A DNA stretch of 64,000 nt from assembly GCA_016191525.1 (NCBI GenBank), contig JACPOK010000037.1, forward strand, positions 186,001-250,000. Reading direction: 5' to 3'. The notes under the pieces were generated by a model, which saw only the letters and a list, made by a program, of their open reading frames with translations, was not told where the DNA came from and ran no database searches. The DNA comes from Burkholderiales bacterium. GTDB lineage: Bacteria; Pseudomonadota; Gammaproteobacteria; Burkholderiales; Burkholderiaceae_C. Position numbers and translations under genes: made by a program. Shown here piece after piece: positions 11,252-45,664 of the stretch. The first letter of the stretch is position 1. Each line of letters opens with the position of its first letter.

Positions 11252-11771
11252 CTGCTTCTGACTTTGCCACGGATTGGCTTGTGGGGTTATCCGCAACATC
11301 CCTTGCCTTGCGGGCGGCCTCCTTGGCTTCCTGCTTTTCCTCTTCGTCGAACAGCCCCAGGAACTTGGCGCTGGCCAGCTGGCGCAGCATCGCGTAGGGA
11401 ATCGGGTCGGGCTTGGAATAGTCGTCGATGTAGGTGTCCAGGCCGTCCATCACGTTGAAGTGCGGGTCGGTAAAGAGCTTTTTCATTGCCGCGTTTTTCA
11501 CTTCGGGCGAGACGCCGGCATTCATGAACGGCTTGAAGTCGGATTCGGGGGTGAGGGAATGGGTGTCTTCCAGGGTTGGCGGTGCAGGCTTCACTTCGCC
11601 ATCCCCGCCCCCCGCGGCATCCCCGCCCCCGCCGTCATCCCCGCGAAGGCGGGGATCCAGGGCGCCCTGGGTCCCCGCCTTCGCGGGGATGACGACCTCG
11701 GAGTTTTCCGGCTCGCCCGCCTTCACGTCCAGCTTGCGCCTGGACCAGCGCCCGAGGAAACCATCAGCCAT
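11178..11771 (-). CDS. DUF3306 protein with an in-frame palindromic repeat insertion
   Basis: This 197-residue protein begins MADGFLGRWSRRKL, the usual DUF3306 start, and continues after a linker with LTPESDFKPFM and NAAMKKLFTDPHFNVMDGLD, then YIDDYSKPDPIP. DUF3306 genes regularly sit beside DUF3305 in fdh clusters; the function is unknown. Residues 27-46 (VIPAKAGTQGALDPRLRGDD) are the translation of a 60 bp palindrome at 11634-11693, followed by a Gly/Asp-rich stretch (GGGGDAAGGGDG). The insert is exactly 20 codons, so the frame is kept. The start overlaps the DUF3305 end by 8 bp. Confidence 0.87.
   Translation of the reverse strand: MADGFLGRWSRRKLDVKAGEPENSEVVIPAKAGTQGALDPRLRGDDGGGGDAAGGGDGEVKPAPPTLEDTHSLTPESDFKPFMNAGVSPEVKNAAMKKLFTDPHFNVMDGLDTYIDDYSKPDPIPYAMLRQLASAKFLGLFDEEEKQEAKEAARKARDVADNPTSQSVAKSEADADPDLRLQPDDAAPGKDPGRGAQ
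11634..11693. repeat. REP-like 60 bp palindrome inside the DUF3306 gene
   Basis: Two inverted arms (GTCATCCCCGCGAAGGCGGG and its complement) meet back to back, with one or two mismatches near the centre. The same arm occurs at 23095 and, inverted, ending at 24219. Each arm also folds on itself (CCCCGC-GAAG-GCGGGG). Just upstream on the plus strand there are extra ATCCCCGC units (11600-11640). Confidence 0.9.
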
Positions 11772-21517: not shown

Positions 21518-23092
21518 ATGACCGAATCGCCTTACGATTTCGATGTGCTGATCGTCGGCAGCGGCCTGGCCGGCCTGTCCGCCGCGCTGCACCTGGCACC
21601 CACCCACCGCGTGGCGGTGCTGACCAAGCGCTCGATGAGCGACGGCTCCAGCAACTGGGCGCAGGGCGGCATTGCCGCCGTGCTGGGCGAGGGCGACACC
21701 TTTGATTCCCACGTAGACGACACGCTGGTCGCGGGCGCGGGCCTGTCCGACCCCGCCGCCACGCGCTTCGTGGTGGAGCACGCGCCCGAGAGCATCGCCT
21801 GGCTGCGCGAGCTGGGCGTGCCGTTCTCGCAGGAAGCGGGCCACCTGCACCTCACGCGCGAGGGCGGCCACAGCGCGCGGCGCATCGTGCACGTGACGGA
21901 CGCCACCGGCGCCGCCGTGCAGCGCACGATGATCGAGCACGTGCGGCGCACGCCCAACATCACGCTGTTCGAGAACCACACGCTGGTGGACCTGGTCACC
22001 AGCAAGAAACGCGGCCTGCCGGTGAACCGGTGCCTGGGGCTTTACGCGCTGGACGAAGAAACAGACGAAGTGCTCACCTTTCGCGCGCCCCACACCATCC
22101 TGGCCACCGGCGGCGCGGGCAAGGTGTACGTCTACACCACCAACCCCGACACGGCCACCGGCGACGGCATTGCCGCGGCCTGGCGCGCGGGCTGCCGCGT
22201 CACGAACATGGAGTTCATCCAGTTCCACCCGACCTGCCTGTACCACCCGCTGGTGAAGTCGTTCCTGATCACCGAGGCCGTGCGCGGCGAAGGCGGCAAG
22301 CTGCTGCTGCCCGACGGCACGCGCTTCATGCCCGAACACGACGAGCGGGCCGAGCTGGCGCCGCGCGACATCGTGGCCCGTGCGATCGACTTCGAGATGA
22401 AGAAGCACGGCCTGGACTGCGTGTACCTGGACATCTCGCACCAGCCGCCGGAGTTCATCAAGGAACACTTCCCCACCATCCACGCGCGCTGCCTGGAGCT
22501 GGGCATCGACATCACCAAGCAGCCGATTCCCGTGGTGCCTGCCGCGCACTACACCTGCGGCGGCATTCACACCGACCTGGCCGGCCGCACCGACCTGACG
22601 GGCCTGCACGCCATCGGCGAGACCGCCTACACCGGCCTGCACGGCGCCAACCGGCTCGCCAGCAACTCGCTGGTCGAGTGCATGGTGTTCGCCCGCTCGG
22701 CCTCGCAGGACATCATGGCCACGCCGCTGCCCGCGCCGCCCGACGTGCCGGCCTGGGACGAGAGCCGCGTGACCGACGCCGACGAATCGGTGGTCATCTC
22801 GCACAACTGGGACGAGCTGCGCCGCTTCATGTGGGACTACGTGGGCATAGTGCGGACCAACAAGCGGCTGGAGCGCGCCGCCCACCGCATCCGGCTGCTG
22901 CAGGACGAAATCCAGGAGTTCTACAGCGCTTTCCACATCTCGCGCGACCTGCTGGAGTTGCGCAACCTGGTGCAGGTGGCCGATTTGATCGTGCGCTCCG
23001 CGCAGGCACGCCATGAAAGCCGCGGCCTGCACTTCAGCCGCGACTACCCCGAGATGTCGGCCGACCCCAAGCCGACGATCCTGACGCCATAG
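21518..23092 (+). CDS. nadB: L-aspartate oxidase
   Basis: NadB oxidises L-aspartate to iminoaspartate with FAD, the first step of de novo NAD synthesis in the cytoplasm. The 524-residue protein has the FAD motif [15 protein letters not shown], the typical [17 protein letters not shown], a catalytic-region [10 protein letters not shown] and [15 protein letters not shown]. Partner genes nadA and nadC lie just downstream on the opposite strand, so nadB converges on nadC-nadA instead of sharing an operon. The stop lies 2 bp before the arm of the large inverted repeat. Confidence 0.97.
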
Positions 23093-23094
23093 TG

Positions 23095-23521
23095 CGTCAT
23101 CCCCGCGAAGGCGGGGACCCAGTGCTTCCGCTTTCCTTGAAGCCCCCTCGCGCCTGCTCCGAGCGGCCCAGCCCCAGGCGGGCGGGCTGCGCCGCGCAGG
23201 CCGGCGGTCAGGGGCGGCCTTCGCCGCCCACCGACTGAACCTGCGGGGGTCCGCTTGCGGGTCCGCATCGCGGGAACTCGCTATGAGTGCCTGAAGCACT
23301 CTCCGCTCAAACAGCCGCGATGAGCCAGAGCACGAAGCGCGCTGAAGCGCGCCGGACCCGCAGCGCCCCCACGCAGGCGCTCGGCCTTGATCGCGCGACG
23401 CAGCCCGCCCGCCTGGGGCTGGGCTGGAGTCGTTGTCGCGTGCCGCTGATGAAACCCCTCACGCATTATTGGCGCGGCTTGTGGCAGAGAAATGGCCTGC
23501 AAGGCGCATGGATAGTGCGTG
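23095..23521 (+). repeat. left arm of a large inverted repeat bounded by a REP-like end
   Basis: This ~427 bp arm begins with GTCATCCCCGCGAAGGCGGG just after the nadB stop. It is near-identical, in reverse complement, to 23791-24219. By eye there are few differences in the outer 250 bp and more towards the middle. It contains a short internal hairpin AGTGC-CTGAA-GCACT and purine-rich GCGAAGCGCG stretches. Open frames across it are not conserved between the arms, so I regard it as non-coding. Confidence 0.9.
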
Positions 23522-23790
23522 GGCGATTTGGACTCCATGACTAGTCACACTCGCAGCCCTCGTAATTGGCTGGATGATCGCTGTTCTGATCGTGGTCCTC
23601 GACTCTCCTCTTCCGCATGGAGAGCCTGGAGAGACCGGCTTAGCCTGGCTAAGGCGGGGCGTTGATGGCAGCCCTGTTGATGTTGGGTTCGTTGCTTCGC
23701 CTCGTCCAAGCGATCTCGAAGTAAAAAGGTATCTACCCACTACCCACCGTGATGGGACTTAACATTTCAGTCAACACGGATGCAAAGACT
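23522..23790. other. central unique segment of the nadB-nadA inverted repeat
   Basis: About 270 bp of visibly lower GC separates the arms. It holds a perfect 7 bp inverted repeat CTTAGCC-T-GGCTAAG at 23639-23653, close to the midpoint of the whole structure. A 62-codon open frame (23574-23762, plus) exists but has no ribosome-binding site or family that I recognise. I cannot assign a function. Confidence 0.5.
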
Positions 23791-24219
23791 CACGCGCATT
23801 CCATGCGCCTCCCAGGCCATTTCTCTGCCACAAGCCGCGCCAATAGCGCGTGAGCGGTTTCCACAGCAGCGCGCAAACCAAGCCTCCAGCCCAGCCCCGG
23901 GTGGGCGGGCTGCGGCGCGCGATCAAGGCCGAGCGCCTGCGGGGGGCCGCTTGCGGGTCCGGCGCGGCTTGCCGCGCTTCGTGCTCTGGCTCATCGCGGC
24001 TGTTTGAGCGGAGAGTGCTTCAGGCACTCATAGCGAGTTGCCGCGATGCGGACCCGCAAGCGGACCCACGCAGGTTCAGTCGGTGGGCGGCGAAGACCGC
24101 CCCTGACCGCCGGACTGCGCGACGCAGCCTGCCCGCCTGGGGCTGGGCCGCTCGGAATAGGCACGAGGTGCTTCAAGGAAAGCCGGAAGCACTGGGTCCC
24201 CGCCTTCGCGGGGATGACG
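23791..24219 (-). repeat. right arm of the large inverted repeat bounded by a REP-like end
   Basis: The reverse complement of this segment matches 23095-23521 almost base for base and starts, on the minus strand, with the same REP arm 1-2 bp after the nadA stop codon. Differences from the left arm include small substitutions and one-base indels that break any shared reading frame. Confidence 0.9.
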
Positions 24220-24220
24220 G

Positions 24221-25345
24221 TCAGGCCGCCCCGATGTTGGGCACCAGCGACCCCGCCGCCTGCCCGGCCTTCAATGCCGCCGTAAACGCCAGCATCCGAT
24301 CAATCGGCAGCCGGGCCCGCAGGCCCAGCGACGGATCGACGTGGATTTCATTCGCGCCGGTCTCCAGCACATGGGCCAGGCCCGCCAGGCCGTTCATCGC
24401 CATCCAGGGGCAGTGCGCGCAGCTCTTGCAGGTGGCGCTGTTGCCGGCGGTGGGCGCTTCGATGAAGACCTTGCCGGGGTTGAGGGTGCGCAGCTTGTGC
24501 ATCATGCCGTTGTCGGTGGCGACGATGAATTCCTTCGCATCCATCTCCTGAGCTGACTTGAGGATGCCGCTGGTGGAGCCCACCGCGTCGGCCAGCGCAA
24601 CCACGTCGGCCGGCGACTCGGGGTGCACCAGCACCTTGGCCTTGGGGTATTGCTTCTTCAGCGCCTCCAGCTCGAAGGCCTTGAACTCGTCGTGCACGAT
24701 GCAGGCGCCGTTCCAGAACACCATGTCGGCGCCGGTCTCGCGCTGGATGTAGGAGCCAAGGTGCTTGTCCGGCGCCCACAGCACCTTGTGGCCCGCTTCC
24801 TTCAGCGCGCGCACGATGTCCAGCGCGCAGCTGGAAGTCACCAGCCAGTCGGAGCGCGCCTTCACCGCGGCGCTGGTGTTGGCGTAGACCACCACCGTGC
24901 GGTCAGGATGCTGGTCGCAGAAGGCCGAGAACTCGTCGATGGGACAGCCCAGGTCGAGCGAGCAGGTGGCGTCCAGGTCGGGCATCAGCACCCGTTTTTC
25001 GGGCGACAGGATCTTGGAGGTCTCGCCCATGAACTTCACGCCGGAGACCACCAGGGTCTGCGCCGGGTGGTCGCGCCCGAAGCGCGCCATCTCCAGTGAA
25101 TCGCTGACAATGCCGCCGGTTTCCTCGGCCAGGTCCTGCAGGTCGGGGTGCACGTAGTAGTGCGAGACCATCACGGCGTTGCGCTCTTTCAGCAGGCGCC
25201 TGATCTTGTCTTTCAGCGCGGCGCGCTGTTCCTGCGACGGCTCCACGGGCACACGGGCCCAGGCGAATTTGGTATCGCAGACCGTACCGGACGATTCGCG
25301 CGGCTGCTCGTACTCAACGTCGAAGATGGGGATGACGGCGCTCAT
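24221..25345 (-). CDS. nadA: quinolinate synthase A
   Basis: NadA condenses iminoaspartate with dihydroxyacetone phosphate to quinolinate using a [4Fe-4S] cluster. The 374-residue protein has candidate cluster cysteines in [25 protein letters not shown] and [28 protein letters not shown] and [14 protein letters not shown] are family signatures. The ATG overlaps the nadC stop as ATGA. The frame is open far upstream, but the start at 25345 matches the coupling and usual length. The gene ends against the inverted repeat. Confidence 0.96.
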
Positions 25346-45218: not shown

Positions 45219-45664
45219 GCGATGCCACCGACAAGCTGGCGCAAAGCCGCCTCGCCATCGTGGAATACCTGCAGCGGCGCGAGCGCCGCCATGACGGCCG
45301 CGTGGAAGAGCGCGATGGGCCGGCTGACGAAGCGGCCGAGGATGGAGGGGACGAGCCGCGCGACCGAGGCTGGTTTTCCACCCTCAAGCACGGCCTGAAA
45401 ACCTGGTGGCGCTACCACCCGGCGCACATGGCGCTGGAGGTGGCCACCCCGGTGCTGCAGACCTACGCCCGCGAGAAGCCGGTGCAGGTGCTGGGCGTCG
45501 CCGCCGCGGCCGGTGCCGCGCTGGTGCTGCTGCGGCCCTGGCGCCTGATTTCCGTCACCACGCTGCTGGTGGCCCTGGTCAAGTCGTCGCAGCTGTCCAG
45601 CGTGGTGCTCTCGGCCATGTCCGCCGCTGGCGGCTGGCAGGAAGAAGCCGGCCGAGAAAGATGA
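45215..45664 (+). CDS. YqjK-position protein, unknown function
   Basis: This 149-residue protein starts with a charged, glutamate/arginine-rich segment (LQRRERRHDGRVEERDGPAD). A middle WFSTLKHGLKTWWRYHPAH and two short hydrophobic stretches follow. Its ATG overlaps the YqjE-like stop. By position it corresponds to yqjK, although similarity is not obvious. Confidence 0.75.
   Translation: MSDATDKLAQSRLAIVEYLQRRERRHDGRVEERDGPADEAAEDGGDEPRDRGWFSTLKHGLKTWWRYHPAHMALEVATPVLQTYAREKPVQVLGVAAAAGAALVLLRPWRLISVTTLLVALVKSSQLSSVVLSAMSAAGGWQEEAGRER

Follow-up and report, generated by a model that had tools for sequence, protein, structure and literature searches.

The stretch of DNA analysed here, 64,000 nucleotides long and referred to as the window, carries nadB and nadA in convergent orientation, and the 1128-bp gap between these genes is nearly all inverted repeat (Table 1). 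The two arms and the centre that they enclose, together called the nad block, lie where an earlier interpretation made from the letters alone (the sequence-only reading) had placed them. That reading also had the repeat ending close to the stop codons, which are found at 23090-23092 for nadB and, on the reverse strand, at 24221-24223 for nadA; the spacers left are 2 bp (TG) on the left and 1 bp (G) on the right, and no target duplication is visible in them. The centre occurs once in its own 5.0 Mb genome. A Pfam scan of two of its ORFs returned no match and no transposase was recognised inside the block, in line with the sequence-only reading, which had seen none. A scan of the block for a sigma-70-like promoter and a T-tract terminator found neither. 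When the whole block was compared with 60 relatives, the best match was partial and scored 118 bits, against 2030 bits for the block with itself.

Table 1. Features of the nadB-nadA locus and, for comparison, a compact dimer of the same REP family (positions in the window).
Feature	Position	Strand	Remarks
nadB, L-aspartate oxidase	21518..23092	+	left flanking gene; named by NCBIfam
nadA, quinolinate synthase	24221..25342	-	right flanking gene; named by NCBIfam
Left arm of inverted repeat	23095..23521	+	427 nt; repeat search and alignment
Right arm of inverted repeat	23791..24219	-	429 nt; repeat search and alignment
REP half, CGTC-type, outer end of left arm	23095..23130	+	36/36 identical to right arm
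REP half, CGTC-type, outer end of right arm	24184..24219	-	alignment and pattern match
P element of left arm, nested palindrome	23165..23424	+	model match 23237-23382; outer stem 23166-23197 pairs with 23393-23424
P element of right arm	23889..24148	-	model match 23931-24077
H hairpin, inner end of left arm (CTCACGCA...TGCGTG)	23458..23523	+	recurs elsewhere in own genome
H hairpin, inner end of right arm	23789..23854	-	alignment with left arm
Unique centre, 269 bp	23522..23790		single-copy; 54% GC; 2 ORFs without Pfam match
Compact REP dimer	11634..11693		pattern match

The arms had been described as near-perfect copies, which overstates their likeness. The alignment has 383 identical columns out of 429 (~90%), with 44 substitutions and 2 gap columns, and the repeat search split them into stretches of 268 nt (91% identity), 75 nt (89%) and 84 nt (86%). 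By part, the REP half is identical at 36/36 positions, the first spacer at 22/34, P at 243/260, the second spacer at 23/32 and H at 59/67. Fold-back chimeras yield inverted repeats, and several P copies at or near contig ends indicate that P troubles assembly. An assembly or amplification artefact of this kind is nevertheless most improbable, and was rejected because the arms differ at ~10% of positions, partly through what appear by eye to be paired changes in the apical hairpin, and because the modules of the arms recur elsewhere in the genome; similar mirrored loci are also present in two other genomes.

The left arm, searched against the genome, gave at least 53 matches (40 of 183 candidates scored). 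The right arm, 91% identical, was the top match among those listed, and the next-best copy listed was 72% identical over arm positions 71-426 (G000:C6:73022-73358). The remaining listed matches are separate modules or reflect the internal palindromes of the arms. The arm modules are therefore not unique to the nad locus, and each arm is a mosaic of three repeats that also live independently: REP, P and H.

The REP occupies the outer end of each arm and reads CGTC-ATCCCCGC-GAAG-GCGGGGAC-CCA at both, with one stem mismatch. In the available text of PMC3733652, the CGTC class of REPs is defined by a CGTC tag, an 8-bp stem starting with AT, a 4-nt loop and a CCA tail, and its CGTC-1 family includes the dRS3 repeat of Neisseria; tag, stem, loop and tail are all present in the outer ends of the nad block. 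With up to 3 mismatches allowed, GTCATYCCCGCGAAGGCGGG has four matches in the window, all of them exact, compared with a mean of 0.04 over 100 shuffles, which rejects a chance origin of the REP ends. These exact matches also bear out the proposal that each outer end is one half of the compact palindrome in Table 1.

Across the genome, the REP core pattern gave 45 matches at up to 3 mismatches and its reversed control gave none. When these were classed by hand, 28 formed 14 compact convergent dimers (38-60 bp from start to start), two were the nad pair, which lies 1101 bp apart and is the only wide convergent pair, and 15 fell into neither class. The repeats are dispersed, mostly as convergent dimers, with no tie to a transposase in a search that covered Y1 transposases. 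That search found a single Y1 transposase (234 aa; L180, G000:C8:211337), flanked by inverted GGGGTCAGATTCCAATTAAT repeats that by eye are unrelated to the nad REP; the gene downstream of it is presumably glutamate synthase-like. A linked transposase was rejected as a candidate, since none was recognised inside the block and this lone, distant enzyme has other ends. The available text of PMC3733652 likewise reports no transposase gene flanked by CGTC repeats.

The sequence-only reading took the compact palindrome as the minimal form of the element and the nad block as a dimer opened by a mirrored insert between its halves. The first part holds insofar as each end of the block is one half of a REP palindrome that is dispersed in the genome, but a simple expansion of the REP is not supported for the arms: outside the 36-bp half, each arm consists of spacer and of P and H, families that mostly have no REP nearby. 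An opened dimer would account for the REP halves at both ends and for the only wide convergent pair among the 45 matches, and it has published parallels in the available texts of PMC1525189, where an insertion sequence (IS) has entered a REP hairpin at its symmetry axis, and of PMC3733652, which mentions DNA between REP dimer partners. It is improbable nonetheless, as arm homology continues through the whole arm, and as a CCCC-type half is paired with a TCCC-type half in 12 of the 14 compact dimers while the nad halves are identical over 36/36 bp, so that the second half was more likely copied along with its arm.

At the inner end of each arm lies H, a hairpin of ~66 bp that is found elsewhere in the genome either alone or as the 3′ end of a ~150-bp repeat. 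The ~150-bp repeat opens with ATATTTCAA-N-TTGAAATAT, an operator-like palindrome, and has H as its other end; copies were seen in its own genome at L030, L043, L044, L045, L049, L051 and L052, some of them directly past apparent stop codons. At L043 and L044, a further mosaic of ~400 bp surrounds H and has 54-bp inverted ends that are 91 and 96% identical.

The largest module, P, is a nested palindrome of 260 bp for which RNAalifold predicted 44 pairs from 25 copies. P stems covary strongly. In an alignment that was used both to derive the structure and to count covariation, which favours the structure, 93.4% of cells are paired and the covariation score is 0.514, compared with 0.159 for shuffled alignments and 0.042-0.102 for slid ones. 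On the same footing, double changes occur in 31 of the 44 pairs and in 222 cells (shuffled means 25.0 and 74.5), while the 55 further pair types are unexceptional, 64 of 500 shuffles reaching that number. The covariance model (R1) scores the nad arms at 116.3 and 118.2 bits, although both are among the 25 training sequences and so match by construction. The model has 22 matches in its own genome, one of them a 50-nt piece, and 0 to 55 matches per genome in the genus, where 28 of 40 genomes carry it. At the level of the family it is present in 62 of 150 genomes and 55 of 126 genera, and at that of the class, under stricter filters, in 6 of 232 genomes, with strong matches only here and in one other genome of the same family. 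Copies at or near contig ends were seen in the nad genome on contigs C6, C30, C32, C35 and C37, and copy numbers in draft genomes are therefore probably underestimates. A regular-expression match to P at position 45235 of the window was left out of account as resembling coding sequence.

A looser pattern for the P core was found in 19 of 184 genomes of the class, its control matching in 2 genomes. Distant relatives of the core were seen in genomes of other families (G159, loci L223-L230; G125, L231-L236; G094, L237-L241); in G159 the pattern appears as repeated convergent pairs ~174 bp apart, flanked by AAAGAAAAGTAACCAAA-type stems. Perhaps these distant relatives belong to a much wider class of intergenic palindromes. 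Rfam gave no match to the nad region up to E = 1, and eight related loci gave only three matches, at E values of 0.47-0.77 and far below the gathering score, so that a known Rfam RNA was rejected. The P core motif and the stem strings of its distant relatives had no relevant match in literature text, and no description of P appears in the titles and abstract openings of the literature on REPs and Neisseria repeats, a body of text in which subscription papers mostly do not figure. If a large structured repeat of this spread, covarying and with no Rfam match, proves mobile or transcribed, it would represent a new and widespread non-coding element.

The position of P relative to genes was determined after six wrong-strand rows had been dropped, leaving 109 of 115 P copies for the counts of gap class, pairing, REP proximity and stem mismatches. 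With genes called by a simple codon-usage caller, 26 of 70 P loci lie in convergent gaps, 9 in co-directional gaps and none in divergent gaps; 34 have one side uncalled and in one the gap is too long. As background, 9 of 54 neighbouring gene pairs in the window are convergent. Among classable loci, P prefers convergent gaps. In its own genome, the P core lies 140-222 nt past a called stop codon in 18 of 21 copies, and, with the start of P ~137 nt before the core, P begins ~3-50 bp past the stop. In the nad arms P starts 72 bp after the stop, with the REP lying between. Relative to the neighbouring gene, one set of 39 copies has 30 sense, 2 antisense and 7 for which no gene edge was called within 260 nt, and a second set of 64, drawn from stretches chosen among the matches listed for seven genomes, has 37 sense, 4 antisense and 23 without an edge within 200 nt. 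A rule that P is always sense to its neighbouring gene was dropped, as one member of the pair breaks it in co-directional gaps (L247, L254, L278). Between convergent genes either orientation reads as sense, and the sense bias is thus largely a consequence of location.

Two P copies are present at 39 of the 70 loci, and in all 39 they point at each other. Thirty-five of these are compact pairs, with a spacing of 253-431 and copies that are unlike each other (38-80%). A closer copy exists elsewhere in the same genome for both members in 32 of the compact pairs and for one member in 2, and the pair at L065 is the sole one without another locus of its genome for comparison; the copies in compact pairs look like dispersed units. 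The other four pairs are wide (spacing 694-1805) and are those of the window, L243, L244 and L271. In the window, L243 and L271, each copy resembles its partner more than any other compared copy from the same genome, which is the case in none of the 35 compact pairs. Likeness over the modelled core is 86.5% between the nad copies and 71.4% for the next-best compared copy; the margins are small at L243 (95.0 vs. 94.2%) and L271 (93.4 vs. 90.8%), and at L244 both copies are closer to another locus than to each other.

Stem mismatches in P differ between the strands. Once near-identical copies were dropped, the strand of the adjacent gene shows 67 A.C and 18 G.T mismatches in one set (17 of 31 copies kept) and 58 and 19 in the larger set (63 of 109 kept). 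Folding is better for the opposite strand in 27 of 31 copies, one nad arm being among the four exceptions, and in 17 of 17 non-redundant copies. The scarcity of G.T relative to A.C on the strand of the gene argues against selection on the read-through RNA of that strand. It has been considered that P is a structured-RNA gene on the strand opposite the adjacent gene, with the nad block holding two divergent copies. The mismatch excess in both sets, the better folding of the opposite strand and the conserved loop letters in P all point in this direction, but the reading is unlikely: wobble pairs are scarce on either strand, the unpaired letters on the strand of the gene are A- and C-rich, so that a mutational skew could give the same count, and the scans described above found neither a sigma-70-like promoter at the nad block nor an Rfam match. 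The strand that matters may thus be the opposite one, or a mutational skew may act. More generally, such asymmetry of wobble pairs can be used to test which of the two strands is the relevant one in a palindromic repeat.

The other three wide pairs, two in one genome (L243 and L244, G020) and one in another (L271, G034), share a plan of CGTC-type REP, P, centre, P and REP, and each sits between convergent genes. Their centres are larger than that of the nad block and contain a MAPEG protein gene at L243 (PF01124, E = 8.9e-17), a RiboL-PSP-HEPN gene at L271 (PF18735, E = 2.2e-22) and a 261-aa ORF with no Pfam match at L244. The left neighbour gene of the L271 block has its best relative elsewhere in the genus sample at 55% identity, too distant to locate an empty site of this block. 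The GC content of the centres is 54% for nad, 59% for L243, 52% for L244 and 57% for L271, below the 67% of the window and the 65 and 68% of small flanking stretches in the two other genomes. The type of REP varies between loci and is the same in both arms at L243, L271 and nad; at L244 the matching REP copy of the left arm has diverged. More generally, 15 of 109 P copies have a CGTC-type REP at a distance of 30-210 nt on their outer side; these 15 are not independent, as both arms of the four wide loci are among them. Of 2000 random stretches taken from these loci, 26 have such a REP, and a mirror window opposite, with either orientation counted, contains one at 6 of the 109 copies.

A bolder and rather unlikely reading of these loci is that mirrored REP-P blocks are undescribed non-autonomous cargo elements of Burkholderiaceae, with P as their basic unit, whose structured arms, alike within a locus, would capture genes (MAPEG, HEPN nuclease-like) into convergent gaps and be moved in trans, the nad locus being an empty or decayed case. 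Blocks of this kind with genes inside would show the entry of cargo into safe gaps between convergent genes. For the nad block itself, the corresponding reading, in which its REP-P arms serve as long terminal inverted repeats for a transposase or recombinase acting in trans, draws on the shared plan, on REP variants that differ by locus and agree between arms, on the excess of REPs outside P and on the lower GC content of the centres. This reading is doubtful, as the nad centre is single-copy and no target duplication was seen, terminal sequences that vary by locus would be unusual for one transposase, and the lone Y1 transposase has unrelated flanking repeats. In addition, the nad block had no match in 72,556 plasmid records, and a compact unit from another locus (L034) had none in the same plasmid records or in 50,697 phage records, on which grounds a plasmid or phage origin was rejected.

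A comparison of the nadB-nadA gap across relatives shows that it is variable in both length and content. The best NadA matches, at 91%, suggest that the genus is Ramlibacter. A convergent nadB is in reach at 17 of 30 genus loci, including that of the window. L074 and L161 share an identical gap sequence, and L075 and L172 identical match coordinates; each of these two pairs is apparently one genome present in two collections. Measured between match ends, the gap is 19-55 bp in several relatives (L071, L074, L080, L155, L157, L161), with an 11-bp inverted match at L074. Within the genus it is 289-1334 bp, of other sequence, at L156, L164, L165, L167-L169, L172-L174 and L177-L179, compared with 29-55 bp at others. 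In Ramlibacter sp. Leaf400 (L075), the gap contains a 3-keto-disaccharide hydrolase gene (PF06439) flanked on either side by CGTC-type REPs. At L159, the 156-bp gap is by eye filled by a different palindrome, GGACGCAGAGGACGC...GCGTCCTCTGCGTCC. The gap is thus a variable insertion site across the genus, and the nad block is additional DNA within it. The available text of PMC1525189 describes REPs as frequent between convergent genes and as targets of IS elements, which fits the hot-spot view.

Taken as a whole, the nad block is a real, unusual intergenic palindromic mosaic and not a simple expanded REP, and P is its new part; further attention is best given to P and to the mirrored blocks that bear cargo. 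The reading preferred here, to which we give a probability of roughly 0.55, is that the block is a non-coding, non-autonomous palindromic mosaic that arose by inverted duplication or conversion in a 3′-3′ gap. One REP-P-H unit may have sat behind one of the convergent genes and been copied in inverted orientation, by template switch or fold-back repair, or the arms may have been kept alike by conversion. Less GC-rich DNA would have been gained or left between the copies, making the centre either acquired DNA or a remnant. Convergent gaps probably tolerate such insertions because they lack promoters. No insertion event, empty site with a target duplication or inverted-duplication junction was seen at the nad block, and with 3 bp of ordinary spacer left, the ancestral gap is unreadable; the wide pair at L244, whose copies are closer to another locus, also counts against this reading. 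As a possible by-product, read-through RNA from either gene would fold into a very long hairpin, its stem having a computed folding energy of -1009.5 kcal/mol. This hairpin could protect or end both messages, replacing a short hairpin such as that in the L074 gap. Recombination between the arms could possibly invert the centre, as the sequence-only reading proposed.

Several known systems resemble the nad block in part. With MITEs it has in common that it is non-coding, ends in inverted repeats (here the 427/429-nt arms) and consists of dispersed building blocks. It differs in that its centre is single-copy, so that multiple copies of the whole unit are not found, in that no target duplication was seen and in that it has no known partner transposon. 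REPINs consist of GTAG REPs and are associated with a RAYT. Two inverted REPs, as at the nad block, are a feature of REPINs in the available text of PMC3116915, and GTAG REPs are also covered in that of PMC3733652; the REPs of the nad block are instead of the CGTC type, and a linked RAYT with this REP on its flanks was not found, the lone Y1 transposase having its own flanking repeats.

The CGTC-1 REPs, as presented in the available text of PMC3733652, share with the nad block the tag, the AT-starting 8-bp stem, the 4-nt loop, the CCA tail, the convergent dimers and the lack of a REP-flanked transposase gene. In the nad arms, however, REP accounts for only the outer 36 bp, and the halves are 1.1 kb apart around other families. 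The closest analogue is found in the neisserial NIMEs, composed of dRS3 and RS repeats (PMC3898611), and the Correia repeat-enclosed elements, represented here by a title in the reference list of the same paper, may be placed beside them. Compared by description with these elements, the nad order is mirrored and its larger repeat, P, is ~260 bp long and internally folded. What the NIMEs and the nad block share, in the available text of that paper, is the architecture of an intergenic mosaic in which short palindromes, one of them of the CGTC-1 class (dRS3 in the NIMEs), are combined with larger repeats.
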